Part shown: positions 44,567 to 60,208 of the stretch, one piece after another
Position numbering within the stretch: the first letter of the stretch is position 1
How the letters are laid out: every line of letters begins with the position of its first letter
Source of the DNA: Desulforapulum autotrophicum
GTDB lineage: Bacteria > Desulfobacterota > Desulfobacteria > Desulfobacterales > Desulfolunaceae
DNA: 64,000 bases
Assembly: GCA_020723285.1 (NCBI GenBank)
Contig: DYJE01000018.1
Span: 1-64,000 of the forward strand
Direction of reading: 5' to 3'
Position numbers and translations under genes: made by a program
The notes under the pieces: generated by a model
What the model saw: the letters and a program-made list of their open reading frames with translations, nothing else
Database searches by the model: none
Told to the model about the DNA's origin: nothing

Positions 44567-45361
44567 ATGAAAAAAGCCGCAACCGCAATCATCCTGTCCT
44601 TGGTGTTTATTTTACCCGCACGTCTTCACGCCGCGTCCTTCGCTGACATGGTGTTCGTGGTCGACCAGTCGGGAAGTATGTACGACGAGTTCAGATGGAT
44701 CAGCAACAGCCTCCGCTATATTGACGCCATCGTCAAGTCAAAGGGGATAACGGCCAATTACGGAATCGCCGGATACGAGTTTTTCTCCGGAACCCAGAGA
44801 GGCTTTTTCGGAGAGAAAAACGCCTGGGCCGACGTCCCGGCCGAAATCGATGGGGTCATCGCCGAAGCGGACTGGGCCGCCCGTAACGTCTATGGCGGCA
44901 TTGAGAGAAGCTACCATGCAGCGTCCTGGGCTGCGGACAATTTTTCATGGACAGGCGGAGACTACGCCAAAGTCATGGTCCTTATCACCGACGAGGACGT
45001 CGATATGGGGGACACGTATTCCTACAACGGCAAGAGGGGCGAGCTGGCACTCAACGACAAAATGAACGACAGCGACATTCTTCTCAACGTGATCACAAGT
45101 TCCTGTTTCAACACGTTCTGGGATGACGCGGCCTTCAGGAAAGGCGACTACATCGGCCTGTTCGACCTGAATTACCTGAGAGAACATCCATCGGAATTCA
45201 CAGCGGATTTCACCCAGGCCAAAATCAATGAAATCATCGAATATCAGCCGACCCAGGCCACCCCCACACCCGAACCCGGCACCCTTTTTCTCCTCGGGTC
45301 AGGCCTTATCGGCATCGGAGCCGTGTCACGGAAAAAAAGAGTGAGAACCGTTCAGCCTTGA
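44567..45361 (+). CDS. PEP-CTERM protein with von Willebrand A domain
   Basis: This 264-residue exported protein has a signal peptide (1-22), a vWA domain (about 26-220) whose metal-binding DxSxS motif is DQSGS at residues 33-37, and a C-terminal PEP-CTERM sorting signal: TPEPGT, a hydrophobic helix, then RKKR (about 231-256). Exosortase would cut at the PEP motif and transfer the protein to the surface or matrix. No exosortase gene is in the window. The promoter is sigma-54 type. A following gene set for exopolysaccharide synthesis supports the link. It may bind a surface ligand through the MIDAS metal. Confidence 0.92.
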   Translation: MKKAATAIILSLVFILPARLHAASFADMVFVVDQSGSMYDEFRWISNSLRYIDAIVKSKGITANYGIAGYEFFSGTQRGFFGEKNAWADVPAEIDGVIAEADWAARNVYGGIERSYHAASWAADNFSWTGGDYAKVMVLITDEDVDMGDTYSYNGKRGELALNDKMNDSDILLNVITSSCFNTFWDDAAFRKGDYIGLFDLNYLREHPSEFTADFTQAKINEIIEYQPTQATPTPEPGTLFLLGSGLIGIGAVSRKKRVRTVQP

Positions 45362-45413
45362 TAAGAATGAAAAAAACATACTGGAATCATGCTTAAAACA
45401 AGGAGAATAGGAC

Positions 45414-46904
45414 ATGGCGCACCGATTTAACCTTCTGAAATCCATGATCCCCAATACCCACCCGCTGCATGGGGATGGCGAATGCGGAAACACGGATATG
45501 AAAACAAGCGGAACTCAGGCCGGGTCGTCCGGTTTCGACAGGCAAAAGCTTGAAATCCTTACGCGGACCGTCTGTGCCATCGAGCCCCACCGGTTTCCTT
45601 CCGTGATCGTCGTGGCGAACGCCGCGCCCAGGAAAAACAAAGGAATCGTCGCGGCACATCTGGCCATGGCCGTTTCGGGCATGCCCGGCCAGAACGTTCT
45701 CCTTATCGACGCGGATTTCACTTCACCCACCCTCCACAATGCTTTCGGATATCCCGAAATCCAGGGTCTTTCGGAATACCTTGCCGACAAAAAGACGCTG
45801 GCCGAGCTTGTAAGAGGAACGGCGAACGATTCCCTTCAGCTTCTTCCCGCCGGTCGTCAGAACCGTTCAGCCGCTGAGCTCCTCTGTTCGAAAAAAATGG
45901 ACCGCTTTGTCGAAGTCCTGAAAAAACGCTGCCAGGACCTTGTCCTTATCATCAACACGGACTTCGAAACGCTGTCGAAAACAGCGCCTTCTTTCGCCCG
46001 GCATGTGGACGGCTTTGTTTCGGTGATCGACGAATCCGTCATCACAGACTTAGGAGGCGATTCACCTTACACATTTCCCGGAAAGGCGAAGCTCCTGGGG
46101 TCCATCCGGAAAAGAAAAACGGTCCACCCTGTTTTTTCGGCCGTTGACGCTATGGAAAAAGACAGAACGGAAAATTCTCGATCGGCCGACCGCCGTGTTT
46201 TAACAGCGTCCACTGTGGAAGAGGGCCCTTTTCTTATTAAAAAACCGGGCTCCGCTGAATCGGACAGGTTCGACAAGCTCACGGCGGACATGATTAAAGC
46301 GGGTGTTTTCAAGGGAAACCCTGTGCTGATGTTCACGAGCCCCAGTTCGGGGGATGGAAAAAGTTTTGTAACGGTGAACGCCGCCGCGAGCATCGCCAGG
46401 AACTCCGGCAGGCAGGTCCTTGTCATCGACTGTGACCTCAGGGCTCCGTCCATCCACACGTATTTCAAGTCGGACAACCTGACCGGCCTCAGCCGTTACC
46501 TTGGAGACGACCGCTTCAGTTTTTCGGACTGCGTCCGGCAGACGGAAATCGACAACCTCTTCCTGATGGCGGCCGGCCCGTCCGTGCCCAACCCTCTCCA
46601 GCTGCTCTCATCTCCTAAAATGGCCCGGCTCGTCGAAGGCCTGAAAAAAGCGTCCAAAGAGATGATCGTCATTCTCGATGCGGCACCTCCCACCCTGATG
46701 GCCGAAGGGAGCGTGATTTCACAGTTCGCGGATACCGTGACCCTCGTGGTCAGTCACCAGAAGACCCACCGTGACGATGTGCGGAAGCTGGTGGATATGT
46801 TCGAACAAAAAAAGGTTTTCGGAGTGGTTTACAACCATTTCAAAGAAAGGCAGAACCTTGCCTCCATCTATAAAAAATACGGTCAACGACTGAAGGCGGC
46901 ATGA
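45414..46904 (+). CDS. Double BY-kinase/CpsD-like ATPase
   Basis: This 496-residue protein contains two MinD/CpsD-type P-loop domains in one chain. The second (about 295-480) is intact: Walker A SPSSGDGKS (309-317), Walker A' VLVIDCD (335-341) and Walker B IVILDAAP. The first (about 60-215) keeps a Walker A'-like VLLIDAD (95-101) but its Walker A is degenerate (ANAAPRKNKGIV, with no GKS). Such kinases phosphorylate tyrosines and control chain length and export of exopolysaccharide. There is only a short tail (YKKYG) instead of the Tyr-rich cluster of Wzc. It has an AAGGAG ribosome-binding site and is followed by the sugar transferase one base later. Confidence 0.88.
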   Translation: MAHRFNLLKSMIPNTHPLHGDGECGNTDMKTSGTQAGSSGFDRQKLEILTRTVCAIEPHRFPSVIVVANAAPRKNKGIVAAHLAMAVSGMPGQNVLLIDADFTSPTLHNAFGYPEIQGLSEYLADKKTLAELVRGTANDSLQLLPAGRQNRSAAELLCSKKMDRFVEVLKKRCQDLVLIINTDFETLSKTAPSFARHVDGFVSVIDESVITDLGGDSPYTFPGKAKLLGSIRKRKTVHPVFSAVDAMEKDRTENSRSADRRVLTASTVEEGPFLIKKPGSAESDRFDKLTADMIKAGVFKGNPVLMFTSPSSGDGKSFVTVNAAASIARNSGRQVLVIDCDLRAPSIHTYFKSDNLTGLSRYLGDDRFSFSDCVRQTEIDNLFLMAAGPSVPNPLQLLSSPKMARLVEGLKKASKEMIVILDAAPPTLMAEGSVISQFADTVTLVVSHQKTHRDDVRKLVDMFEQKKVFGVVYNHFKERQNLASIYKKYGQRLKAA

Positions 46905-46905
46905 C

Positions 46906-48330
46906 ATGATCCGACTGTTCAACCGGCATTATCCGGTAAGAAACGTGTTTTTCGTCATCGGTGAAGGTGCCCTCATCTTCGCCTCCATCCTGGCCGCGGC
47001 TTCGGTCTTCCGTTTCTGGGCGTCCGTCCCTTCAGGATTCTCATTTTTCATGGAAACCGTCCTTGTCACGCTGATCTGCCAGGTCTTTCTCTTCTACCAC
47101 GGGATGTACGACATCAACGCGCTGAACAGCATGGCCGACCACGCCGCAAGGCTTCTCCAGGCCCTGGGTTTTACCACGGTGATCCTTGGAGGAATCCACC
47201 TGTGGATCGGGCATGAGATCATCCCATCGAAGATCTTCATCACCGGGCTCGTTACCATGGCCGTCCTCGTCCTGGTCTGGCGTTTCATCTATTCCCAGGC
47301 CCTTTCCCGGCATTTTCTGGACAAGACGGTTCTCATCCTGGGCGACAGCCCCCTTATCCGTTCGATCATTCGCTCGGCTTCGGCCCAGAGGGACTGCGGC
47401 TTTGCCCTGACCCATCTTATTTCAACTGCCGCGACCGGTCCTGGAAGCATCGCTGACGGGGAAAACGGTTTCAGCGGAATTCAAGGGCTTTCGTCGTACT
47501 GCCGCGAACACGCCATCCGGATGATCGTCGCGGACGACGCCATGGACGGCTGGGACGAAACCATCGAAAACGAGCTTCTCGCCTGCCGGACAGACGGCAT
47601 TCGCGTCATGGACGCCCAGGCCTTTTTCGAAATGCTCACCGGGAAGCTCCATGCCGAAAAGCTTAAGGCGGGCTGGATTATCTTTTCCGGCGGATTCCAC
47701 CGCTCGGTTCTCCATCACGCATTCAAACTCCTGTTCGACTACGCGGTGTCCGGTTTTCTTCTTTTTCTCCTGTCCCCGGGCATTCTTCTCACAGCCGTCC
47801 TGATCAAGCTCGATTCCAGCGGCCCTGTTTTCTACAGCCAGGAACGCCTGGGGAAAAACAAGAAACCCTATAAAATATACAAGTTCCGATCCATGGTGGT
47901 TGATGCTGAAAAAAACGGCGGCCCCGCATGGTCCAAAAGCGGCGACACCCGAGTCACCCGGATCGGGAATTTTATCAGGAACTGGCGGATCGACGAAATC
48001 CCCCAGCTTGTCAACGTGCTCAAAGGGGATATGAGTTTTGTGGGGCCGAGGCCGGAAAGGGATTTCTTTGTGAAGAGGCTTGAAAGAGACATCCCGTTTT
48101 ACGGGGTGCGGTTCACGGTGAAACCGGGAATTACGGGCTGGGCGCAGATCAACTACGGATACGGTTCGACGGACGAAGACGCCCTGGAAAAGCTGAACTA
48201 TGACCTGTACTACATCAAGAATTCAACGGTGTTCATGGACCTTTTCATCGTGTTCAGGACGACGAGGACCGTCATCCTGGGTGTTGAACACGGAAACGGG
48301 GAAACGGCCGTCCGGAACGCTGCGCATTGA
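46906..48330 (+). CDS. XrtA-type polyprenyl-phosphate sugar phosphotransferase
   Basis: This 474-residue membrane enzyme is of the WcaJ/WbaP type, probably the TIGR03013 XrtA-associated subgroup, judged by the IRLFNRHYPVRNVFFVIGE start. Four N-terminal membrane helices precede a CoA-binding-like segment, a fifth helix (about 272-292) and a C-terminal catalytic domain with the KxxYxSMxxD-type KIYKFRSMVVDAE and PRPERDFF motifs. It transfers a hexose-1-phosphate to undecaprenyl phosphate, the first step of exopolysaccharide synthesis. Its ATG is one base after the kinase stop, so the two are translationally coupled. It is the last gene of the locus on this strand. Confidence 0.92.
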   Translation: MIRLFNRHYPVRNVFFVIGEGALIFASILAAASVFRFWASVPSGFSFFMETVLVTLICQVFLFYHGMYDINALNSMADHAARLLQALGFTTVILGGIHLWIGHEIIPSKIFITGLVTMAVLVLVWRFIYSQALSRHFLDKTVLILGDSPLIRSIIRSASAQRDCGFALTHLISTAATGPGSIADGENGFSGIQGLSSYCREHAIRMIVADDAMDGWDETIENELLACRTDGIRVMDAQAFFEMLTGKLHAEKLKAGWIIFSGGFHRSVLHHAFKLLFDYAVSGFLLFLLSPGILLTAVLIKLDSSGPVFYSQERLGKNKKPYKIYKFRSMVVDAEKNGGPAWSKSGDTRVTRIGNFIRNWRIDEIPQLVNVLKGDMSFVGPRPERDFFVKRLERDIPFYGVRFTVKPGITGWAQINYGYGSTDEDALEKLNYDLYYIKNSTVFMDLFIVFRTTRTVILGVEHGNGETAVRNAAH

Positions 48331-48365
48331 TACCTGAAAAAAGGAATTGGAGTACGGGTATGAAC

Positions 48366-49730
48366 TCAGATCGCGTACTTTTCCATCTTCTTGTAGAGCG
48401 TGTCCCGTGAAATGCCCAGAAGCTTTGCGGCCATGACCTTGTTGCCGCCGGATTTTTCAAGGGCTGTGGCGATATGTTTTTTCTCCATTTCCTCAAGAGA
48501 CGGGAAACTGTCGTCCGAAAGCGGCGCGGCCGGTTTCACTTTTTCAATTGGGCCGGTCATGTCCATCAGGTGGGTGGGTTCGATCGTTTCCTTCGAATTC
48601 CTGATCGCCGCCCGCAGAAGAACGTTCCGCAGTTCCCTCACGTTTCCCGGCCATGGGTAGCTCAAAAGAACCTTCCTGGCGTTGTCGGAAAGTTTCTGTT
48701 TTTTGATGTTATGGTCTTTCACGAACTGTTTCAGGAAGAATTCGGCCATGGGGACGATATCCTCCTTCCTGTCCCTTAACGGCGGAATGGTGAGCTTGAT
48801 GCAGGCCAGTCTCTGGAACAGATCGTCCCTGAACCGTTTCTGGACGATCATGGCGTTGAGGTCCTGGTTCGTCGCCGCAACGACGCGGACGTTCAAGGTC
48901 CTTGGGCGTGTGTCCCCGAGCCGTGTGATCTTTCTGTCCTCCAGGAATCTCAAAAGTTTCGGCTGGACAGTCAGGGCCATGTCACCGATTTCATCGAGGA
49001 AAATGGTCCCGTTGTCGGCCTGTTCCAGTTTTCCGGGCTTGTCCTGGGCCTGGTGGAACGCACCCTTGACCGAACCGAAAAGCTCGCTTTCGAATATACC
49101 TTCGGGGATGGCTGAACAGTTCAGGGCCACAAGTTCCCCCCCGGTCCCCGAGAACCGGTGAAGGGCGTCGGCGACTTTTTCCTTGCCCGTTCCCGGTTCG
49201 CCAGTGATCATCACCGGTACGTTGATCCGGGCCAGTTCCATGATATCCATGTAAAGGGCCACCATGGCGTCGTTCCGGATCACGATTCCATGGAGTTTCA
49301 TGGCGTCCCGGAATTCTTTCCTCTCTTTTTCCGCTTCGTCCGGCAGCTTGGACATGATCAGGGTGGACGTCTTGTCCAGGGACTGTTCGGTGAAACAGAC
49401 CTGCTTCCTGCCGTCTGCCTCGGCCCGAACGATGACGCTGTCGGAATCCCCGTCGTCCACGAAAGAGAAGTTGTAGTTCGTGATGTGAAACACGTCTCCG
49501 TGGGAAAGCCTGTACTCCGTCACCCTGTCTTCGTTGACGAAGGTTCCGTTGCTGCTAGAATCGAACAGTCTGTATCCGTCAGTCGTTTTCCTGATCGTCG
49601 CGTGGTTCCGCGAAATGGACGAGTCCTCGATAAGGATGTCGCTTTCAGCCCCCCTTCCGATGGTTATTTCACCGTCGAAGCGGACGACCTTGTAGCCCCT
49701 TTGGTTCCTGTCCACAATCAGGGAAGGCAT
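48366..49730 (-). CDS. FHA-domain EBP-like regulator with GAFHQA loop
   Basis: This 454-residue regulator has an FHA domain (about 15-95; EITIGRGAESDILIEDSSISRNHA), an AAA+ domain (about 140-380) and a Fis-type DNA-binding tail (KVMAAKLLGISRDTLYKKM). FHA domains bind phosphothreonine, so a Ser/Thr kinase could control it. Walker A GEPGTGKE and Walker B TIFLDEIG are intact. The sigma-54 contact loop, however, reads GAFHQA (223-228) rather than GAFTGA, so it may not activate sigma-54 directly. It is convergent with the sugar transferase and lies 9 bases downstream of the small gene at 49740-50045. Confidence 0.9.
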   Translation of the reverse strand: MPSLIVDRNQRGYKVVRFDGEITIGRGAESDILIEDSSISRNHATIRKTTDGYRLFDSSSNGTFVNEDRVTEYRLSHGDVFHITNYNFSFVDDGDSDSVIVRAEADGRKQVCFTEQSLDKTSTLIMSKLPDEAEKERKEFRDAMKLHGIVIRNDAMVALYMDIMELARINVPVMITGEPGTGKEKVADALHRFSGTGGELVALNCSAIPEGIFESELFGSVKGAFHQAQDKPGKLEQADNGTIFLDEIGDMALTVQPKLLRFLEDRKITRLGDTRPRTLNVRVVAATNQDLNAMIVQKRFRDDLFQRLACIKLTIPPLRDRKEDIVPMAEFFLKQFVKDHNIKKQKLSDNARKVLLSYPWPGNVRELRNVLLRAAIRNSKETIEPTHLMDMTGPIEKVKPAAPLSDDSFPSLEEMEKKHIATALEKSGGNKVMAAKLLGISRDTLYKKMEKYAI

Positions 49731-49739
49731 GGTTTTCCA

Positions 49740-50045
49740 TTACGCGATAAGTTGAAGGGCGCTTTTCTGTTCGTCGAAGCTGTGGTTCAGGACGTAAATT
49801 GAAGCGGCCATCTTGAGGGGTACGCCCCCGGAGCCCGACGCGAGATTGGCGTTTCCCTGGCTGCCCGATCCGCCGTCGTCAACCGGGGGGGGCGGGGCCG
49901 TTATTTCACTGAGGGAATCCGCAGGCCGGGATTCTTCCGCCGGAACGGGCCGGGGTGCCGGGGTTTCCGTTTCAGGCGGCGGAGCCTGCATGGGCGTTGC
50001 TGTCTGTACGGTATACGCCGCTGAAGATATCTGTGAGATATTCAT
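49740..50045 (-). CDS. Small Pro-rich protein, possibly YjfB-like
   Basis: This 101-residue protein has an N terminus (NISQISSAAYTVQTATP) and a C-terminal helix (AASIYVLNHSFDEQKSALQLIA) that resemble the YjfB putative motility protein family, joined by an unusual Pro/Glu/Gly-rich linker of about 55 residues. The start at 50045 follows AAGGTG; a longer frame to 50120 adds a basic N terminus. It lies 9 bases upstream of the FHA regulator, so the two are probably co-transcribed. Its function is unknown, and the YjfB match is weak. Confidence 0.55.
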   Translation of the reverse strand: MNISQISSAAYTVQTATPMQAPPPETETPAPRPVPAEESRPADSLSEITAPPPPVDDGGSGSQGNANLASGSGGVPLKMAASIYVLNHSFDEQKSALQLIA

Positions 50046-50242
50046 GGTTTTCACCTTGTAAACGCCGACAAGTTCATTTTGGCGTTTCCTTTCCTTGTGG
50101 GTATAATATCGGACGGACAAGGCATAACATTTAGCGTTGATTCAATGGGTTTTAAGTTTATAACATTATCAGTCAACCGATGTAGAAAATAAAAAAAAAG
50201 ATGTTTTCAAAATTGGTCCGGGTGTCGACGCAAGGAGGGGGA

Positions 50243-50289
50243 GGCGCATTGCGGTATCGGGATGAACTCCCAAAAACATGCAATGCGCC
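50243..50289. repeat. Inverted repeat after the LRR lipoprotein gene
   Basis: GGCGCATTG (50243-50251) is exactly complementary to CAATGCGCC (50281-50289), with an inner GGGA/TCCC hairpin. It lies 11 bases downstream of the minus-strand stop codon. It lacks a T-run and could stabilise mRNA or act as a weak terminator. Confidence 0.4.
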
Positions 50290-50299
50290 AAGGGCGTGG

Positions 50300-52555
50300 C
50301 TATCTGCACATCAATTGCCAGGAATCGTATTTGTACCCTTCATAATAAACGGTCACCCCGTTATCGACCAGTGTGAAAATATCTTCGCAGTTTGCTCTGG
50401 TAAGAGGATTGTGATCCAGAGTAATGGTGTCGGGTAAACCTGCGCCTGTTTGATCGGGATCTTTGATGCCGATGCCTCCGGCGTTAGAGTTCGCGGCAAG
50501 GGGGGCTATGTCGTCGATGAAATCGTCATCAAGATAAATATCCCTCAGATTTGTCAGGTTCGTAAGGGCTGAAACGTCGTTGACTTGGAAGTTGGATCCC
50601 AGGTCAAGAGTCCTGAGCTTGGTTAGTGTGGCAAGGGGAGAGATGTTGCCTGTAAGAAGAACTCCCTGTAAATTCAGGCTTATCAGATTTACAAGGCCCG
50701 AAAGTGGCGCAGTGTTGGAAATTCTATGGGTCTGGTTGAACAGGCTGAGATGGCGGAGATTGACAAGACCGGACAAGGGGGAGATATCTGAGACTTGGCA
50801 ATCACTTAAATCCAGGTGGGTCAGTTTTGTAAGGTTTGAAAGAGGCGCAATGTCGCTGATCGGATTGTCACTGCTGCCATTTTCATAAGTGTAACCGCGT
50901 AAGGCGAGGTTTTGAAGATTACTCAGACCAGCCAGAGGGGAAATATCTTCGATCAGATTTCGAGAGATATTGAGTGTTGTGAGTTGAGCCATCCGGGAAA
51001 GAGCTGAAATGCGGCTGATGGCATAGTTGTGGGATAAATCCAGCCATTTCAGGTTGACCATGCCGGCCAACGGGCTGACATCGTTGATTTTATTTTGACT
51101 TAAATCGAGCTGCTCCAAGTTGACAAGGCCTGATAGCTTCATGATATCCGTTAGTTTTCCGGCTTCATTATAATATCCTGAAAGGTCGAGGGTCTTGAGC
51201 CGGGTCAGTCCGGCCAGCGGAGTGATGTCGGTTAATGCAGCACTCTTGATTTTGAGACCCTGAAGGTTGGTTAGTTTAGACAAGGGCGATAATGATACCA
51301 GGGCCGGGCAGATGATTTTCAGTTCGGTGATACCCGTCAAAGATGAGATCGGGGTCAGGTCGGTTACCTTTGAACAATTGAGGGTCAGGTCCTTGAGATT
51401 GACAAGTTTCGAAAGTGCGGAAACGCTGGTTATTTCATATCCTCTAAGGGCAAATTTTTGGAGTTTGACTAACTTCGACAGGCCTGAGATGCTCCGCACG
51501 TCAGAGCTGAGATCAAGATCGAGTTTGTCGAGATTTGTGCATTGAGATAAGAGTGACATGTCGGTTGAATTTTTTGCGAAAACTCCTAATTGAACAATTT
51601 TTGGCAGTTTCTGGATCGGTGAATAATCATTGATCAGCATGTTTCCATACAGATTTAATCTGGATAAATACTGCAGACTGGCAAGAGGTCCGATGTCTGT
51701 GATCTGGTTGTGGTTCAGCTCTAACGTTGTCAAACTGACAAGACCTGAAATGGAGGAAACATCTGAAATATTATTCCAGCCGAGATTGAGGGATTTCAAG
51801 CGGGAAAGCACAGCGAGAGCAGATATGTCCGACAGTGAGTTGAACGAAAGGTCAAGGGTTTCCAGTTTTTTTAATTTTTTTACAAAAGAAATATTATGCA
51901 CTTTTCCATGATAGCTGACGGATTCGCTCGCAAGACCCATGGGGTCGTTGAACAAATTTGAATCAAATGTGTGAAATCCACTCAGACTCAATTCCTTCAG
52001 GTCGGCGGCATACTCGATGCCTGAATATTCAAAGTATTTGTATTCATTAAGATCGGGAATGCTGAGTGATGTCAGCTTAATCATGTCCCGGTTGGTTACG
52101 GGTGTAGGCGTGGCGATGCCCAGCGCGGACCGGATCACTGTTTCAAAATCACCGGGACCGAATTTAACGATTTCTTCTTCATCCACCGTTCCGTTGCAGT
52201 TGTTGTCTTTTGAATCGTTGCTGATTTCGGGCGCTCCTGCGTAAACCAGAGAATCCAGCTCATCGCAGTCACTTGCGTTGTCGACGCCGTCACCGTCGAT
52301 GTCCGTGTCACAGGTGTCCCCGATTCCGTCTTTGTCCAGATCCTCCTGGGCGGGATTATACATTTGTTTGCAATCGTCACAGGTATCGCCGACTCCGTCG
52401 TTGTCACCATCAAGCTGGTCGGGATTGTAAACATTCGGGCAGTTGTCGGATGCTGTGGCGATTCCGTCGTTGTCCACATCGGAATCGTCGGTGTCGCAGG
52501 ATGCGATGGCCAGAACCAGAATACACAGCATGAGCAGAGCAATAAACTTTTTCAC
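50300..52555 (-). CDS. Thrombospondin-3/LRR lipoprotein
   Basis: This 751-residue lipoprotein has a signal with lipobox LAIASC (Cys20). Residues about 22-125 hold three calcium-binding thrombospondin type 3 repeats (DNDGIATASDNCPN, DGDNDGVGDTCDDC and similar), with paired Cys and Asp residues. A short linker leads to about 20 leucine-rich repeats of the SDS22/internalin type (residues about 145-720), each about 22 residues with the DISPLAGLxNLxxLDLS pattern. Such solenoids bind proteins on surfaces or partner cells. It is a single gene with a weak ribosome-binding site. Confidence 0.93.
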   Translation of the reverse strand: MKKFIALLMLCILVLAIASCDTDDSDVDNDGIATASDNCPNVYNPDQLDGDNDGVGDTCDDCKQMYNPAQEDLDKDGIGDTCDTDIDGDGVDNASDCDELDSLVYAGAPEISNDSKDNNCNGTVDEEEIVKFGPGDFETVIRSALGIATPTPVTNRDMIKLTSLSIPDLNEYKYFEYSGIEYAADLKELSLSGFHTFDSNLFNDPMGLASESVSYHGKVHNISFVKKLKKLETLDLSFNSLSDISALAVLSRLKSLNLGWNNISDVSSISGLVSLTTLELNHNQITDIGPLASLQYLSRLNLYGNMLINDYSPIQKLPKIVQLGVFAKNSTDMSLLSQCTNLDKLDLDLSSDVRSISGLSKLVKLQKFALRGYEITSVSALSKLVNLKDLTLNCSKVTDLTPISSLTGITELKIICPALVSLSPLSKLTNLQGLKIKSAALTDITPLAGLTRLKTLDLSGYYNEAGKLTDIMKLSGLVNLEQLDLSQNKINDVSPLAGMVNLKWLDLSHNYAISRISALSRMAQLTTLNISRNLIEDISPLAGLSNLQNLALRGYTYENGSSDNPISDIAPLSNLTKLTHLDLSDCQVSDISPLSGLVNLRHLSLFNQTHRISNTAPLSGLVNLISLNLQGVLLTGNISPLATLTKLRTLDLGSNFQVNDVSALTNLTNLRDIYLDDDFIDDIAPLAANSNAGGIGIKDPDQTGAGLPDTITLDHNPLTRANCEDIFTLVDNGVTVYYEGYKYDSWQLMCR

Positions 52556-53107
52556 AATGAACCTCCATAATTAAAAAAAGATGATGGGTTTTTGGAACAT
52601 TTAAAGCAATAAATCTAACCGTACATACGGTGTGCGTATCAAAGATGCTCTGCTAATTTGGGTGATACAGGTGATGACAACGTATTAGGGTTGAACGTAT
52701 CAGAAACGTTATTCGTTTATGAATATGAAGTATTTCAACGGAACTCGTAGTTGTTGATCTGCACCTTAATCGAACGGCTACGATATTTCAACATGAATTA
52801 AACCATTGTATAAAAATTATTTCACGCGAATAAAAAAACAACTGCGGTCATTTTTACAACGTAATGAAATCAGGATATTTCTTAAAATTTTGCCCTGCAG
52901 TTTCTACCAATAAAATTTTTTTTAGCACGGGTGTGCAATCATCGAATTTTTTGAAAAAGACATTGGCATCAGCGGGTTTTTGTTTCCGGAAAAGTGATCA
53001 TTGTGATCATCACTGATGACCGGCCGTGGATTGGCGGACTATTATAGCTACGAAAGATTATTGATGATCGGGTGGCGTGGGATTCGATCTTGTTATATCC
53101 TGAACTT
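52556..53107. other. AT-rich intergenic region
   Basis: These 552 AT-rich bases precede the LRR lipoprotein (minus strand) and follow the minus-strand gene at 53108. I see no convincing RNA gene, repeat or reading frame in it. Confidence 0.4.
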
Positions 53108-53623
53108 CTAAAGAGTTTTAAGATGCCAGACCTCTTTTCTCCCTCTGGGGCTGCCCAGAACGATTTCCCCTTTGTCCTTGTCGATGTCAAGGCGTGCAAG
53201 GGGCTTCATGTTTTCAGGGAAAACCACCACCGGGTCTTTGATGGAGATTTTTTTCATGCCCATGGAGAATTCGGCCTTGGCCTTGGTGGCTTTCAGACGG
53301 AGGCTGTTGTTGATGTAGACGGAGATTGTGAAATTTTCAGCGACTATTTTTTTGAAAAGGGCATTGTTGAAAGAGCCGAATTTGGTCTTTTTGAGATAGA
53401 GCTTGTCCGCTTCCAGAGTGTAGCGGCAACGGCCTTCGTTGACCGTGAATGTGACATGTTTGCCGTAGGGGCCGTTTCTAAGGAGGGACAAGGGGCTTTT
53501 GTCTGAAAAGCCATCAAATCCGGCTGGTTCGTTCTGGCCATGGCGTGTCAGGGTATAATAGCCGAAAAGTCCAATGGACAGGATGATGACGGAATAAAAG
53601 GCGACGAGGATTTTTTTTTTCAT
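53108..53623 (-). CDS. Small exported or anchored protein, possibly LptC-like
   Basis: This 171-residue protein has an N-terminal membrane anchor (about 5-24) and a beta-rich remainder. The pattern of alternating hydrophobic residues (EADKLYLKKTKFGSFN...ISVYINNSLRLKATKAKAEF) resembles the LptC/LptA-type jellyroll of envelope export proteins, but sequence similarity is weak. No adjacent lpt genes are visible. Its ATG is unusually placed: a perfect 10-bp hairpin (53636-53661) ends 12 bases upstream, and no Shine-Dalgarno lies between them. Expression of this gene may depend on that structure. Confidence 0.6.
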   Translation of the reverse strand: MKKKILVAFYSVIILSIGLFGYYTLTRHGQNEPAGFDGFSDKSPLSLLRNGPYGKHVTFTVNEGRCRYTLEADKLYLKKTKFGSFNNALFKKIVAENFTISVYINNSLRLKATKAKAEFSMGMKKISIKDPVVVFPENMKPLARLDIDKDKGEIVLGSPRGRKEVWHLKTL

Positions 53624-53635
53624 GGATTAGTTTCA

Positions 53636-53661
53636 GCGGAGCACCGGAGAAGGTGCTCCGC
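53636..53661 (-). promoter_or_regulatory. Strong hairpin just before the 53108-53623 start
   Basis: GCGGAGCACC pairs perfectly with GGTGCTCCGC around a six-base loop. On the minus strand it is 17 bases after the upstream stop codon and 12 bases before the next ATG, leaving no room for a normal ribosome-binding site. The T-run that follows it lies on the plus strand, where no upstream gene uses it. Confidence 0.6.
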
Positions 53662-53678
53662 CCGAATTTTTTTAGACG

Positions 53679-56033
53679 TTAGTTGGTGAGTTTGACTGCG
53701 CCCGAGTTGCCGTAGTATGCGCCGGAATAATCAACAGAATAACTGAAACCGTTAAGCAGATTATCGTCAATCAACTCACTGGCAGCATCCGATGGGAGTG
53801 AGACCTCAATACCCGCACCGCTGTTGACCGTTTGGGAAGTGACCCCGCTGGTGCTTCCGTCATATCTTGCACTCCAGTTTGGCGTATCGTAGCTGTTGAA
53901 ATAAATTTGGATTCCATGCAGCGATGTCCAATAGTCATCCCAGTAGCCTGAGGCAAGGCCAAAATAAACATAATACGGCGATCCGCTTTTTTCGATCAGA
54001 GCGCACATTTTGCCACTGCCATTGATGGCCAGTTTGGCTTTCAGTTCGTTTGTGTTGATGAAGTAGGGTACGGAGGCCCAGTCACTTATACTGCCGTCAA
54101 TGGTTATTGACGCACTGGGTACTTCAGGGGCTGGGATGGGCTCATCCCAGTCGATTTCAACGACGCCCGTAGCGACATTTGTTCTGCTTCCCCTGATGTA
54201 GAGTTCGATGTCGTCTTCTGTCTGGTCCGCAACATCCAACCAGTTTCTGACCGATTTATCGCCGTTGGCGAAGTCGAACAGGGTGTAATTCGCGTAGTCC
54301 GGATTGATGGTGTAGGTGTAATAGAAAATGGTGTGTGTGATTTTCTCGTAAGCAAAACCATCGCCGGGGACATATATTTCAGGATCCGCTTCATCGGAAT
54401 CCACACTTTTGATCGGAGTGTTTTTGGTGTCCAGGGCTGCGATGATGGACGCGATGGTGTGGGTGTTCAGTGCGCTGGCTATCTGGGCGTCAAAGGCGTC
54501 GTCCATGGAAAAGGCGTTCCGGACTCGGGCTTTTTTCGCGGCATCAGACAAGGCGGCCAGGGCGGTGCATGCTTTGCCGTAAGTGGTGGCCGCGTTTTTC
54601 AGGGCCGAACGGAAAATTTCCAGCTTGGTTGTGCTGCCCACGCCCAGAAGGCCCGGATTGCTGGTGATGAATTCCTCTTCCTGGTCTTCGGTGACATCGT
54701 CAATGGTGCGGATATCCACCTGGTTGCCGCCGGAAGTGACGGTCCAGTCGCTGACGGTGTAATCGACGGATTCAACAAAGGCGCATGCGGCGATCATGAG
54801 GTTGGTCATGGTTTCAAGAACCTTGACGTCGATGTCGTCCATGTGGATGGTGTCGAAGCCGGCCAGGGAGATGGTGGTGTGCGCCCCTTCGGCCTTGGCG
54901 AAATAGGTGTTGGCTGTCTGAAGTCGCCCGCGAAGTTCTGAAAATGTTCCGATGATGGCGTCTTCCTGGGCAGATGTTGAAAGATTGACGATGCTCTCAG
55001 TGATGCCGTTCATGATGGTTTCATTGTCGAAATCGGTGTCAAAGTCGATTCCCAGATCCTTGAAGAATTCACCGGCCTCACTGTTGTAGATGAAAGCCAG
55101 TTCTGCAACACCCCTGAACAGATTTTCTTCGGGAGTGTCCGGTGTGAAGGTGAGATACGCCACAAAGGCGGCCAGGTTGGCGGTTGTGGGGTCGTTAAGA
55201 AGGGTGAGCAGTCTGTTTTTGAGTTCGGCGAGATCTCCCGTGGCAGCAAATCCGCCATCGATGATATCGTCAAGATGGCCGAAATTGTCGGATAGCCCGT
55301 TTTCGTTGTTCTCATTGCCGATGAAGTCGGTGATGGCATCGTTTATCATGGCACCCTGATCATCGAGTTCATTGTCTTCAAGATCATCTTCCAGAAGGTC
55401 AAGCACTTCTTCAGGTGTCATGTTGCCGTTATCACCGGCCTGGGACAGTGCGGCGAGAAGAAGGGTATAAATGACTTCAGATTCCGTTGCGCCGTCGTCA
55501 GCTCCTGCTACTGTCGGATCGAAGGGACGGTCTTTCAGGATATCCCCATCGGGGCCGAGGAGCTGGGAAATCATCTTGTTTGCTGCATCGATGGCTGCAG
55601 GATCGAGGTACGAACCGGCTTTTCTGACAGCCAGTTCCGTGAGCGGCGTTACGCAGACGGACACTTCCCCACCCACAGAGGAGGGTAAGGCAGCCCGGCG
55701 GACTTCGGTCAAAGTCCGCGTCTCGCCTGTGGCCTCGTCGATGTATGTTCCGCCTGTGGCCTCGATAAGAATGGCACCCGTGTAAGTTCCCACATTGGCC
55801 GTGTAATCCCCGTTGCTGTCTGTGGTTGCCGTTGTGATGAGCGTTCCTTTGATACCGTTTTCAATTTTATAGATACTGATTGTGGCTCCGGCCACAGGGC
55901 CTTCGGAAACGGTTCCTGAAAGTGTCGTTGATACCGGCTTGGGCGGATCGTCGTCATCGCTGCACCCCCACACATTTAAAAGCGCCAGAAGGCAAAGAAA
56001 ATACAAAGACCATCGCAATTTTCCTCGTTTCAT
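53679..56033 (-). CDS. Large exported lipoprotein with carboxypeptidase-like N domain
   Basis: This 784-residue lipoprotein has a lipobox ending LLNVWGC (Cys24) and an acidic Asp-rich stretch after it. Residues about 33-130 form a carboxypeptidase-regulatory-like beta-sandwich (TLSGTVSEGPVAGATISIYK). The central part (about 140-590) is helical and acidic, and I do not recognise it. The C terminus (about 655-780) resembles a family-9 carbohydrate-binding-like domain (ASITIDGSISDWASVP). It is probably a cell-surface protein binding sugars or proteins. It is the upstream gene of the 53108-53623 gene on the minus strand. Confidence 0.85.
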   Translation of the reverse strand: MKRGKLRWSLYFLCLLALLNVWGCSDDDDPPKPVSTTLSGTVSEGPVAGATISIYKIENGIKGTLITTATTDSNGDYTANVGTYTGAILIEATGGTYIDEATGETRTLTEVRRAALPSSVGGEVSVCVTPLTELAVRKAGSYLDPAAIDAANKMISQLLGPDGDILKDRPFDPTVAGADDGATESEVIYTLLLAALSQAGDNGNMTPEEVLDLLEDDLEDNELDDQGAMINDAITDFIGNENNENGLSDNFGHLDDIIDGGFAATGDLAELKNRLLTLLNDPTTANLAAFVAYLTFTPDTPEENLFRGVAELAFIYNSEAGEFFKDLGIDFDTDFDNETIMNGITESIVNLSTSAQEDAIIGTFSELRGRLQTANTYFAKAEGAHTTISLAGFDTIHMDDIDVKVLETMTNLMIAACAFVESVDYTVSDWTVTSGGNQVDIRTIDDVTEDQEEEFITSNPGLLGVGSTTKLEIFRSALKNAATTYGKACTALAALSDAAKKARVRNAFSMDDAFDAQIASALNTHTIASIIAALDTKNTPIKSVDSDEADPEIYVPGDGFAYEKITHTIFYYTYTINPDYANYTLFDFANGDKSVRNWLDVADQTEDDIELYIRGSRTNVATGVVEIDWDEPIPAPEVPSASITIDGSISDWASVPYFINTNELKAKLAINGSGKMCALIEKSGSPYYVYFGLASGYWDDYWTSLHGIQIYFNSYDTPNWSARYDGSTSGVTSQTVNSGAGIEVSLPSDAASELIDDNLLNGFSYSVDYSGAYYGNSGAVKLTN

Positions 56034-56417
56034 TGAGTCCTCCTCTAAAAAGTATAGTTCTTGTATTCGTGAAACTTTTTGAAGAATTAAATAACGGCTG
56101 TCTCTTCAGTGGTCTATTTCCGTAAAACGGAATAGATACTAATAGAATAATAGATAATTGTCGAGATAAAAATTACTCGTGTCAGGTTTGATGATCGAAC
56201 CAATGAGAAATATAAGAAATCCTTAAATGGTATGGGAACGGTGGTGTGCATGGCCGGGGATAGGCTATTGCCAGAATCTCTAAAAAACCAAAATCAATAA
56301 AGATAATTTGAAAAAAAAGATGGCGGGATTGGTGATTGACAACTTCATGATGTTCATATTAAAGAAACCCATCCGTCGACTTTTTTTAATGACATTCTTC
56401 TGAAAAACCGGGAGGAA
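56034..56417. other. Divergent promoter region
   Basis: These 384 AT-rich bases separate the lipoprotein and the first START gene. TTGACA at 56336-56341 lies 17 bases before TTAAAG, a possible promoter for the START genes. Nothing else stands out. Confidence 0.45.
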
Positions 56418-57086
56418 ATGATGAATAACAGATCGTTGTGGGCTACCGTTATTTTTTTTCTTGTATTACAATACCAAGGTTCGGCTGCAGAGAACTCATG
56501 GAGACAGACCGGAGACAAAGGGGGAGTGAAATGCTACGAAAGGGCCGTTGAGGATTCCGGAATCAGGGAATACCGATCTGTTTCAGTGATGAATCATTCC
56601 ATCGAAACCCTTCTTGAAGTGCTCATCGATGTCCCGTCTTATCCCCAGTGGATGCCGGACTGCATGGAGGCCCGTATACTGAGGGAATTCAAAAAAGGCC
56701 TCGAAAGGGGAAACTATTACATTTACTTGAAAATGAACGGAATATGGCCGGCTGACAACAGGGATCTCGTCATTGAGTCGTTACCGAAAACCGACTGGGA
56801 GGGCGGTGTTTCAGTGATTCGGCTGAAAAAACTCGATGACGGTGTGTTGCCTCAACAGCCGGGATTGGTTCGGATCGCTGATTTTATGTCGGAATTCAAA
56901 CTTGAAATCATCTCACGGGATAAAACCATGGTGACCATGACCACGTATGTGGATGTGGGGGGGATGATTCCGTCTTTCATGGCCGCCATCCAGACGAAAA
57001 GTGTTCCGTTCGGAACGCTTGCAGGGCTGAACCGTATGGCTTCTGACCCCCGATATCGGAAAGCGGCTGCAAAAGATTACTTTTGA
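56418..57086 (+). CDS. Exported START-domain protein 1
   Basis: This 222-residue protein has a signal peptide (about 1-24, cleavage near SAA) followed by one START domain (about 32-218). Characteristic START pieces include VPSYPQWMPDCMEA, the IWPADNRDLVIE segment and the C-terminal helix, which cups a hydrophobic ligand such as a lipid or steroid-like molecule. The presence of a signal peptide puts it in the periplasm. A paralogue of similar length follows at 57330-57992. The ribosome-binding site is GGGAGG. Lipid handling is the likely role, but no ligand can be named. Confidence 0.9.
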   Translation: MMNNRSLWATVIFFLVLQYQGSAAENSWRQTGDKGGVKCYERAVEDSGIREYRSVSVMNHSIETLLEVLIDVPSYPQWMPDCMEARILREFKKGLERGNYYIYLKMNGIWPADNRDLVIESLPKTDWEGGVSVIRLKKLDDGVLPQQPGLVRIADFMSEFKLEIISRDKTMVTMTTYVDVGGMIPSFMAAIQTKSVPFGTLAGLNRMASDPRYRKAAAKDYF

Positions 57087-57329
57087 AGGCCATTTATGCC
57101 AATTCCACCGCCGGTTCTCTGACCGGACGCGGGCTGTGCCTCACGTCACGCATAAACATTTTTTATTCATGCGAACAATGAATCTAAATTCTTGACTATG
57201 TCAGTCCGCCATAGTACACAAAAATTGTACATCAGGAAAAAAAGTGCCGGGTGGATCTAAACGCCTGGCCAGGCAGCATCATTTTTTCCCTGTATGCGGT
57301 GAACGAGGGTTCGGGTTAAAGGGGGGGGC

Positions 57330-57992
57330 ATGCGGATTATCATATGGGGGGTGGTGTTATTATTGATTTCCGCCTCGGCGTGGTGCGGTGAAACGGGCTA
57401 TCAGTGGGAACTGATCAAGAAAAAAGACGGAATTGACGTGTATTCCAGCAGAACTCCGGGTTCGGATTTCAGGACGTATAAAGCTCAGAGCATCATTGAA
57501 AGACCCTGGGAAGTTCTTTTTGAGGTGCTGCTCGACGTTCCCGGTTACTCCGGATGGATGCCGGGTTGCCGGTCATCGTCCATCGTCAAAATGGTCCATG
57601 ATGATCCCATCAAAGGGAATTTTATCATCCATTTTGTCTGGGACGCCATATGGCCGGTAAAAAACCGTGATCTGGTCGTGGCGGTCAATTCGGATCATGA
57701 CTGGGATAACGATCATGTATCCGTCGTTCTGCAGGCCACCGATCAGCACAACATACCGGTTCCTGAAGGACTTGTCCGGCTTAACGCTTTTTTCGCGCGA
57801 TTTGATTTTAAATACATTGACAGAAACAGGACAGAGGTTGTTTTTGTCACCATGATCGATCCTGGTGGTATCGTTCCATCGGGAGTTGCGGATATTCAGA
57901 CAGCGACAGTTCCCTTTGACACACTCAAAGGCCTCGCCAAGCAGGCAGGGAATCCCAAGTACTACAAACAGGCCGTGATGGATTACTTCTGA
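57330..57992 (+). CDS. Exported START-domain protein 2
   Basis: This 220-residue protein is a tandem paralogue of START protein 1: a signal peptide (about 1-18) and one START domain, sharing motifs such as DVPGYSGWMPGC and IWPVKNRDLVV. The two copies diverge in much of the ligand pocket. The gene begins after a run of eight G residues (57321-57328) that acts as its ribosome-binding site, leaving only one base before ATG. The YadA-like gene begins 22 bases after it and is probably co-transcribed. Whether the two copies bind different ligands is unknown. Confidence 0.9.
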   Translation: MRIIIWGVVLLLISASAWCGETGYQWELIKKKDGIDVYSSRTPGSDFRTYKAQSIIERPWEVLFEVLLDVPGYSGWMPGCRSSSIVKMVHDDPIKGNFIIHFVWDAIWPVKNRDLVVAVNSDHDWDNDHVSVVLQATDQHNIPVPEGLVRLNAFFARFDFKYIDRNRTEVVFVTMIDPGGIVPSGVADIQTATVPFDTLKGLAKQAGNPKYYKQAVMDYF

Positions 57993-58014
57993 CATTTTAA
58001 TGAGGTGAAGTGGT

Positions 58015-59112
58015 ATGAAACAGAACGTGTTTATCGGTATTCTATGTTTAGTTGGGATTTCGCTGCTGGTCATCCAGTCGGCTCAAGCCAAGAAAATCAG
58101 CAATTACGAAGAAATGTACGCCCTTTTCCCTGGGGGGGCGGCCCACTCCGACATGAACAGGGCTGTTGTCGAAAACGCACAGAAGCTCGTGGCAGAAAGG
58201 CAGATGTTAAGAAAACGGCGGACCATACGCTTCATGAAACCAGTGTCGGTCGACGTCATGAATGAGAAATATATCTCCGTGGCATTCGATGTTCAGATAA
58301 TGCCGGCCAAACCTTCTGTCTTTGCCCTTTTGTTTGAAACGAGCGGTGATAATCCTGTTGCGTTTCCAAATACGACGTATCTCCATTGGGTCGGGGCAAA
58401 CGATCTGAAAATTTTCAGTGCGATGGACATGGCCGGTCTCTATAAAAGTTACCAGGAAATGGGAATTGAGGACTGCAAACCGGGTTTCGAGAGATCTGGT
58501 CTTGAAAAAGCGCTGCTTGGCAAGGCGGATATCAATCATACTCATGATGTGTCCACCCTGGTTTCGGGAATTCTTCCGGAAACCAGGGTCGATGACAGCA
58601 TCGCCCGGGACAAGGAAGTGGGAGATATGATGAAATCATACGTGGCGGGTCTTGAACGTAAAATCGATCAGCTTGAACGCAAACTGGCCGCTGTGAATGA
58701 CCTGCTGAACGGAGTCACTCGAAGCAACGGCACCATCACGTTCAGCAACGTGAATCTCCAGATTGTCAACGGCAAAGGGGCAACGGGCGAGATAAACGGA
58801 AAAGGGAATCTCATTGTGGGCTACAATGAATACAGGGGCGGTGGCGATGTCCGAAACGGTTCGCATAACATCATCGTTGGCAGTCGAAACAATTATTCCT
58901 CGTTTGGCGGAATTGTTTCAGGAACGGCAAACGATATCACCGGGCGTTACGCTTCGGTGGTTGGTGGCCACACCAACTCGGCAGGGGGTGAATTTTCAAC
59001 CATCGTGGGCGGAGCCAAAAACAAAGCCAAGGGCAAGTATGCCAGCATCAACGGCCAGACTGATCGAACGAAAGTGGATACGGCGGGAAATCCTCATTTC
59101 ATAAACAACTGA
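58015..59112 (+). CDS. Exported protein with coiled coil and YadA-head-like repeats
   Basis: This 365-residue exported protein has a signal peptide (about 1-25), an N-terminal domain of unknown function (about 30-165), a KADINHTHD segment similar to phage tail-fibre repeats (about 170-180), a coiled coil (about 203-232), and about four YadA-head/Hag-type beta-roll repeats near residues 280-345 (SGTANDITGRYASVVGGHTNSAGG). The C terminus has no membrane-anchor domain, so it is not a full trimeric autotransporter. A trimeric surface or secreted fibre is plausible. It is part of the START cluster and is followed by a strong bidirectional terminator. Confidence 0.8.
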   Translation: MKQNVFIGILCLVGISLLVIQSAQAKKISNYEEMYALFPGGAAHSDMNRAVVENAQKLVAERQMLRKRRTIRFMKPVSVDVMNEKYISVAFDVQIMPAKPSVFALLFETSGDNPVAFPNTTYLHWVGANDLKIFSAMDMAGLYKSYQEMGIEDCKPGFERSGLEKALLGKADINHTHDVSTLVSGILPETRVDDSIARDKEVGDMMKSYVAGLERKIDQLERKLAAVNDLLNGVTRSNGTITFSNVNLQIVNGKGATGEINGKGNLIVGYNEYRGGGDVRNGSHNIIVGSRNNYSSFGGIVSGTANDITGRYASVVGGHTNSAGGEFSTIVGGAKNKAKGKYASINGQTDRTKVDTAGNPHFINN

Positions 59113-59113
59113 T

Positions 59114-59159
59114 TAAAAAATCCCCCGAATTCAGAGCGTTGAATCCGGGGGATTTTTTT
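59114..59159. terminator. Bidirectional terminator
   Basis: ATCCCCCGAATTCA pairs with TTGAATCCGGGGGAT, flanked by six A residues on one side and seven T residues on the other. It works for the plus-strand fibre gene and for the minus-strand response regulator that converge here. Confidence 0.88.
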
Positions 59160-59205
59160 CGGTATTCATCACCCTTCATGACATTCAATCCACAGGGTTG
59201 GTCTG

Positions 59206-59871
59206 TTATCGGTCAAGCGTGGTCAATCCTTCCTGAACAGCGAATTTTGTCAGTTTTGCAATGCTGTGTATGTTCAGCTTTTCCATGATCTGGCGGCGAT
59301 GGGTGTTGACGGTGGACTCACTGACGAAAAGACGCTGGCCGATATCACGGGAAGAAACCCCTTCTGCGATGAGCTGGAGAACTTCCCGCTCCCGGCCTGT
59401 GAGTTCCGGCGTGGCAGTGACGGCGGAGCGTGAGGCAGAGGCGTGGAGATAGTCCTGGACCACGGTATGAGCGATCAGCGGGCTCAGGTATGTTTTATCT
59501 TCTGCAACGGTTACGATGGCGTGTCGTAACTCATCGACAGAACAGCTTTTCAGCAGATAACCTTTGGCTCCGGATTTGAGCATCCCGGCAACAAACTGGC
59601 GATGGGTGCTCATGGTCAGCGCGATAACATCGATGCCCAGATTCAGTGCGACGATCTGTCTGGCCGCGTCCACCCCGTTTAATTCAGGAAGATTCACCTC
59701 CATAATGACGATTCGAGGTCTGAGATCCTGGGCAGCTTTTAGCGCCTCGCGACCTGTGGATGCTTCGCCGGTTATAAAAATTCGTTCGTCTTTTTCGAAC
59801 AGTGCTTTGAGGCCTGAGCGGGTGATGGTCTGATCATCGGCCAGGATAACACTGATACGTTCTTGGGTCAT
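59206..59871 (-). CDS. NarL/FixJ regulator with Glu in place of phospho-Asp
   Basis: This 221-residue response regulator has a receiver (1-120) and a LuxR-type helix-turn-helix (about 145-205). In the receiver the phospho-acceptor position reads Glu58 (IMEVNLPEL instead of IMDxxMP), while the acidic pair D12/D13 and the switch Lys in GYLLKS are kept. Glu often mimics phosphorylated Asp, so this may be constitutively active. There is no adjacent kinase. The start at 59871 is preferred (GCAGGA upstream) over a GTG at 59886. It converges on the START/fibre genes. Confidence 0.88.
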   Translation of the reverse strand: MTQERISVILADDQTITRSGLKALFEKDERIFITGEASTGREALKAAQDLRPRIVIMEVNLPELNGVDAARQIVALNLGIDVIALTMSTHRQFVAGMLKSGAKGYLLKSCSVDELRHAIVTVAEDKTYLSPLIAHTVVQDYLHASASRSAVTATPELTGREREVLQLIAEGVSSRDIGQRLFVSESTVNTHRRQIMEKLNIHSIAKLTKFAVQEGLTTLDR

Positions 59872-60208
59872 GGTTATATCCTGCACTGGTTAAGGATGAT
59901 GTTTATTGAAGCCTGCACATCGTTTCCTATCACAGTTGAACATTCGTGTAAACGACCTGTTGGCAGGGCATGGAGAACTTTGGGAGAGGGCTGTAAATCA
60001 CGGATATGTTACTTTTTTTTGACGCCGGCAATTATTTTTTCGATCGTATAAAAGATTATATTAGTTTGCTATCATTGTTTATTAAGCTTGATTATTGTCC
60101 ATTGGATAAACTATAATAACATAATTTTTATCGGATTATTCAGTGAGGCCCAGGGGGGGCCGATACGTATTATAAAGAATGAACCGACGATCAATTTTTG
60201 GGGGAAAC
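59872..60208. other. Divergent intergenic region
   Basis: These 337 AT-rich bases include a possible promoter for the following TetR gene: TTGATT (60088-60093), 18 bases, then TATAAT (60112-60117). A GGGGGAAAC ribosome-binding site lies at the end. Confidence 0.45.

Follow-up and report, generated by a model that had tools for sequence, protein, structure and literature searches.

Do two exported START-domain proteins and the YadA-head-like protein encoded next to them form a functional unit, and is such a unit a new lipid-binding and surface-exposed system, as an earlier note had suggested? The question was raised by three genes near the end of a 64,000 nucleotide stretch of Desulforapulum autotrophicum DNA, here called the window (genome G000, contig C15). 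Three open reading frames transcribed in the same direction were confirmed, encoding proteins of 222, 220, and 365 amino acids:

56418..57086, + strand: START-A, START-domain protein with a signal-like start, 222 aa (PF01852, signal-like N-terminus, reciprocal best hit in G001:C289)
57330..57992, + strand: START-B, START-domain protein with a signal-like start, 220 aa (PF01852, AF2, Foldseek)
58015..59112, + strand: the third gene, exported-type coiled-coil/beta-roll protein, 365 aa (ORF, phmmer, alignment, hydropathy, family profile)

Both START proteins exceed the Pfam cut-off of 22 bits for PF01852, START-A with 27.4 and START-B with 33.6 bits. Their scores for the related family Polyketide_cyc (22.7 and 21.8, respectively) are close to its cut-off of 23.4, yet below it. 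The two proteins are 35% identical to each other. An AF2 model of START-B (mean pLDDT 82.6, pTM 0.79) was matched by Foldseek to the bacterial START structure 3qsz with an E-value of 1.4e-15 and a TM-score by target length of 0.88, and it also matched human START proteins; the model supports a START fold for START-B. 3qsz, from Xanthomonas axonopodis, belongs to the same fold and family and is the best match of START-B both by sequence and by structure, with 25% identity in the structure alignment. According to its entry title it was crystallised as residues 25-204, which suggests that a signal segment had been removed. The phosphatidylcholine transfer protein and the StAR/STARD proteins share the START fold, and a START-A/B profile matches 1ln1 (E 5.7e-11), but these proteins are eukaryotic and their ligands cannot be transferred to START-A and START-B.

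A hydropathy heuristic finds a hydrophobic, signal-like N-terminus on START-A, START-B, and the third protein, and beyond it no 19-residue stretch in any of the three exceeds the hydropathy limit applied. START-A and START-B would then be soluble, exported proteins. An excerpt of PMC2577659 describes START domains as binding membrane lipids and other bulky hydrophobic compounds, and two exported START proteins are most simply read as carrying a hydrophobic compound in the periplasm. We infer both the location and the ligand from this: each protein would most likely hold a hydrophobic molecule, probably a membrane lipid, in its cavity.

The earlier note had called tandem exported START domains unusual in bacteria, and this turned out to be right for the tandem arrangement and wrong for the export. 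START profile matches were found in 47 of the 389 genomes of the order (E <= 1e-15, at most five candidates scored per genome). A strongly hydrophobic, signal-like segment is present near the start of all 18 START genes that were read from relatives; these represent 18 of the 19 places outside the window, the START ORF of G021 (L042) being left out. Exported START proteins are ordinary in this order. In a phylum sample, 15 of 297 genomes match the Pfam START family at E <= 1e-6. Tandem pairs are on the other hand rare. Judged by eye, the window and G001:C289 have them among the places listed for the 389 genomes, and the 297 genomes of the phylum sample contain one tandem exported pair, in another order (G418:C18). 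The signal segments of the G418 pair are near-identical, which points to a separate duplication. L072:7234-8103 and L073:6884-7567 encode another START protein whose N-terminus looks like a signal segment and which is 41-43% identical to START-B; several genes of the response-regulator/kinase type surround the L072 gene.

Could the ligand be a hopanoid or another product of a squalene cyclase? START proteins elsewhere bind sterols, according to the excerpt of PMC2577659, and bacterial sterol-binding proteins of other families are described in the excerpt of PMC10942540. No squalene-hopene cyclase match was, however, found in G000 or G001. Among 31 of the 47 START-positive genomes, picked for completeness (the equally complete G215 was left out), one had a match, against none of 31 START-negative genomes. 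The cyclase search thus largely refutes a hopanoid ligand, unless it is taken up from outside, and we regard such a ligand as very improbable.

The third protein is composed of several distinct parts:

58015..58089, + strand: signal-peptide-like segment, residues 1-25, ending SAQA (hydropathy; A-X-A type site read directly)
58096..58479, + strand: N-terminal domain, about residues 28-155 (alignment; without a Pfam family; in the samples searched, its matches are confined to the order)
58522..58614, + strand: hinge with HTHD, family-conserved motif around IA/ITRD.E, residues 170-200, tail-repeat-like (alignment; PF12789 in 1/15 members)
58609..58707, + strand: coiled coil, residues 199-231 (heptads read directly; RhxxhE in homologues)
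58750..59052, + strand: conserved NGKGNLIVGYNE/SHN box and YadA-like beta-roll repeats, residues 246-346 (UspA1 match; LbR_Ice_bind in 8/15 members)

The window copy matches no Pfam family at E <= 0.1, and PHROGs and NCBIfam gave nothing useful. The head of UspA1 (3pr7) was matched by phmmer with an E-value of 1.7e-6, and with 3.8e-16 when a profile of 15 family members was used. LbR_Ice_bind was matched by eight of these 15 members; the likeness to the grass ice-recrystallisation-inhibition beta-roll 3ult is confined to the repeat, which does not imply that the third protein binds ice. The Pfam family 'Phage tail repeat like' (PF12789), which contains an HTHD stretch like that of the third protein, was matched by one of the 15 (3.3e-5). 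This member is not the window copy, where the HTHD stretch can be read directly in the sequence. An AF2 model made from an alignment of two rows (the window and L007, which is the same contig as G001:C289 and was counted once; the viral-contig loci, which have nothing but the C-terminal module in common with it, were left out) is poor, with a pLDDT of 37.4, so the fold is taken from sequence profiles. The short strands at residues 305-346 of this model fit a beta-roll, and are not evidence alone. Pfam, phmmer, the profile, and direct reading together bear out the order first described for the locus, two START genes and then a gene encoding HTHD, a coiled coil, and YadA-head-like repeats.

Heads of the UspA1 type are trimeric. 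Residues 213-231 of the coiled coil display, when read directly, a hydrophobic spacing of 4-3-4-3-4. The motif RhxxhE, which we take to be a trimer-type coiled-coil motif, occurs in 19 of the 25 homologues, where shuffled segments would lead one to expect 0.58, although the homologues are related and thus not independent. The window copy has KIDQLE, with K for R, so the exact motif is absent there. Judged from these signs the third protein is probably a trimer. It would be exported and lack an outer-membrane anchor, with a coiled coil and, at the C-terminus, a left-handed beta-roll. Most likely it serves the envelope as a scaffold or binding protein, either in the periplasm or after release.

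The lack of a membrane anchor had been noticed from the window copy, and it held when homologues were included: the families listed for the 15 members scanned, with a limit of E <= 0.01, include neither a YadA anchor nor another membrane-anchor family; the window copy is one of these members. This bears on whether the third protein is a reduced fibre of the trimeric adhesin type, standing outside the cell with the START proteins as incidental neighbours. It does resemble UspA1 and YadA in its YadA-like beta-roll head repeats and in an apparent coiled coil that follows a signal-like segment. In trimeric autotransporter adhesins, as described in an excerpt of PMC2942831, the passenger is N-terminal and the anchor C-terminal. 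In the third protein, by contrast, no C-terminal beta-barrel anchor was found; the roll itself is at the C-terminus, and the protein ends 19 residues past it. Furthermore, the beta-roll head repeats are absent from three family members encoded next to HEAT-repeat proteins and from the copy in G020. The head does then not seem to be the common function of the family, and the shared work should rather lie in the N-terminal domain, the coiled coil, and the GNLIVGY/SHN box. A C-terminal module like that of the third protein is also present in exported-looking proteins on viral contigs, which speaks for a surface fibre, but on balance we find this alternative unlikely.

The viral-contig module comes from one scan with one pattern, in which five loci share only the C-terminal module of the third protein. 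It lies in an exported-looking ORF at four of the five, L134 having no clear ORF. The proteins of L132, L133, L135, and L136 are small, have a signal-like start, and contain the same GNLIVGY/SHN beta-roll module, while their N-terminal parts are different. By eye, L132, L133, and L135 have a common gene order. A phage origin of the third protein was considered and rejected, as a search of 50,697 phage records gave no hit for it at E <= 0.01. A role as phage tail fibre was likewise rejected, as no virion genes were seen among the genes scanned within about 15 kb of the trio; those scanned encode START proteins, a response regulator, a TetR-type regulator, an LRR protein, exopolysaccharide-type proteins, and DUF3141.

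The family of the third protein is found in 24 of the 389 genomes of the order (E <= 1e-6) and in 15 of the 395 genomes of a phylum sample (E <= 1e-10). Matches outside the order begin at profile position 184 or later, and thus do not include the N-terminal domain. This domain is present in 25 copies from 20 genomes of the order, a set that excludes G203, G212, G225, and G336, where only the C-terminal module matches. The match in G074 contains stop codons, and an open ORF of 366 residues found there was used instead. The search used did not find the box in G054 and G040.

The genes found in the same cluster as these 25 copies show which company the family keeps. Porin-type proteins are encoded at 16 of the loci, proteins with PEGA and FGE domains (PEGA-FGE) at 13, short PstS-like proteins at 12, HEAT-repeat proteins at three, and START proteins at two, while four loci have none of these types. 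These counts are lower bounds since some contigs are short; G040 and G102 are cut by contig ends, and the contigs of G007 and G261 measure 4.5 and 5.8 kb, which hides some neighbours. A PEGA-FGE relative at L067 is on the other strand and further off, and was not counted. The usual neighbours of the third-protein family are a porin and a PEGA-FGE protein.

The porin label is based on matches to Porin_O_P in nine of 15 sequences (best E 6.2e-6) and to Porin_4 in two of 15; no solved structure was matched by the porin-type proteins. Outer-membrane barrels characteristically end in a phenylalanine, and all 15 porin-type proteins do so. Judged by its genes, this company suggests that the family may work at the outer-membrane side of the envelope. 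FGE and PEGA domains were found in 13 of 13 FGE partners, six of which also have a caspase domain. PBP_like_2 was found in nine of the 12 short PstS-like proteins, and one of them scores just below the curated cut-off. At 11 of the 25 loci these genes form a conserved four-gene cassette encoding a PstS-like protein, a Porin_O_P-like porin, a member of the third-protein family, and a PEGA-FGE protein (with caspase in some):

L056:5068-10465: cassette locus; equivalents at L058, L061, L063, L065, L066, L068, L069, L107, L108, and L109

The cassette spans four families of the order (f1, f20, f26, and f52). Apart from work on FGE-type proteins, nothing was found on it in the literature searched; an excerpt of PMC5915273 describes FGE proteins with PEGA or caspase extensions. 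Copies without the head are encoded beside large HEAT-repeat proteins at L057, L059, and L067, where the HEAT label of L067 comes from clustering alone, and L059 has a porin as well.

The window genome itself encodes two more copies of the third protein, one on C85 with a full cassette and one on C25 with a HEAT-repeat neighbour. The window copy lacks the porin, PstS-like, and PEGA-FGE genes that accompany the C85 paralogue. When the 25 copies are placed in a tree, the two with START neighbours group together in a single clade (support 100/100). This clade is nested among cassette-linked copies, where the forks have moderate support (83/85) and the root is placed at the midpoint. The simplest reading is that the association with START genes arose later and locally, and that one copy of the third gene came to adjoin the START pair in this lineage.

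Among the genomes searched, the trio is found in two of one family, G000 and G001, and all three genes are reciprocal best hits in the same order. START-A is 64% identical to its reciprocal best hit in G001:C289. Both START proteins have their own closer counterpart in G001, and the duplication would thus predate the split of G000 and G001. When the window is compared with L007, differences at the third codon position predominate in all three genes, as expected for genes constrained at the protein level; the codon-position pattern alone was used here, dS being saturated or undefined for these pairs. Two features follow the third gene:

59115..59158, no strand: palindrome with A/T runs, lying where the third gene and the response regulator converge (read directly)
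59206..59886, - strand: NarL-type response regulator, conserved neighbour (PF00072, PF00196; 63% identical reciprocal best hit in G001)

From its sequence the palindrome is likely to be a bidirectional terminator. A terminator scan gave only a short minus-strand stem in it, and total terminator counts are near those of shuffles. The promoter scan (9 vs. 5.5 in shuffles) and the terminator scan (6 vs. 4.6) were not used as evidence, and Rfam gave no RNA element at 55900-60200. At L007:9130-10742, the counterpart region in G001, the third gene and the regulator are separated by a histidine kinase gene. There is none at this position in the window, and the best match elsewhere in the window genome is 35% identical.

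The trio does not stand alone in the two genomes, but is a part of a longer collinear block common to G000:C15 and G001:C289 and comprising flagellar genes (FliF, FliG, a FliI-type ATPase, and FliJ), DUF3141, the trio itself, the response regulator, and, further downstream, a large gene. The START pair and the third gene might accordingly be independent neighbours whose order has been kept together with the chromosome around them. This explanation, which agrees with the structure of the three proteins given above and denies only the link between them, has several observations in its favour. A START gene is found at only two of 25 third-gene loci, the START pair of G418 occurs without a third gene (G418 is not among the 15 matching genomes of the phylum search), and single START genes are found in other genomes. 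Against it, START-B and the third gene are separated by only 22 bp, from which we infer that they are likely co-transcribed. The trio has also stayed intact although about 12 kb directly upstream of START-A have no reciprocal best hits on the G001 contig (1,999 bases are uncompared). We regard chance neighbours as a serious possibility, if somewhat short of an even one. The upstream region, 44567-56033, encodes a PEP-CTERM protein, a ParA-like protein, a sugar transferase, an FHA sigma-54 regulator, an LRR protein, and a protein of 784 aa whose start resembles that of a lipoprotein.

That the trio has been kept in two genomes of one family, inside a conserved block, argues only weakly for a functional link. 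START-A and START-B are 243 bp apart, which speaks against a single unit, and a functional unit of three genes is weakly supported. The co-occurrence check proposed for a specific three-gene unit largely went against it: START genes stand at two of 25 loci, and both of these belong to the same family and are part of a longer collinear block. One could still imagine a three-protein lipid system, where the START proteins load and deliver a lipid and the trimeric third protein, at the outer membrane or the cell surface, receives it or gives them a place to dock. All three proteins look exported and are encoded next to each other in both genomes having them, and an envelope role is plausible given the porins beside related copies of the third protein. 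As 23 of the 25 copies have no START neighbours, and any binding is putative, we consider this system doubtful, more so than a surface fibre. A more specific version, a lineage-specific envelope shuttle in which two divergent periplasmic START carriers would pass lipid to an unanchored, trimeric coiled-coil/beta-roll protein from a porin-linked family, seems more improbable still.

The best explanation is in our opinion that a pair of duplicated periplasmic START carriers is encoded next to an envelope or secreted protein that has no anchor, is probably a trimer, and comes from a family linked to porins and PEGA-FGE proteins, and we give this reading as a whole a probability of roughly 0.55. 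The trio looks like a real, but local, variation on familiar parts and not like a new system. The parts are of known kinds, and the arrangement is found in two genomes. No description of it was found in the literature searched, and the part of it on bacterial or exported START proteins gave no START-based envelope lipid path. The cassette of PstS-like protein, porin, third-protein family, and PEGA-FGE protein is a more interesting and more general observation than the trio. If the three proteins cooperate, they would represent a START-based lipid path in the bacterial envelope. If they do not, the locus still defines a protein family whose N-terminal domain has no Pfam family, and which is mostly found in an envelope cassette with a porin and a PEGA-FGE protein.
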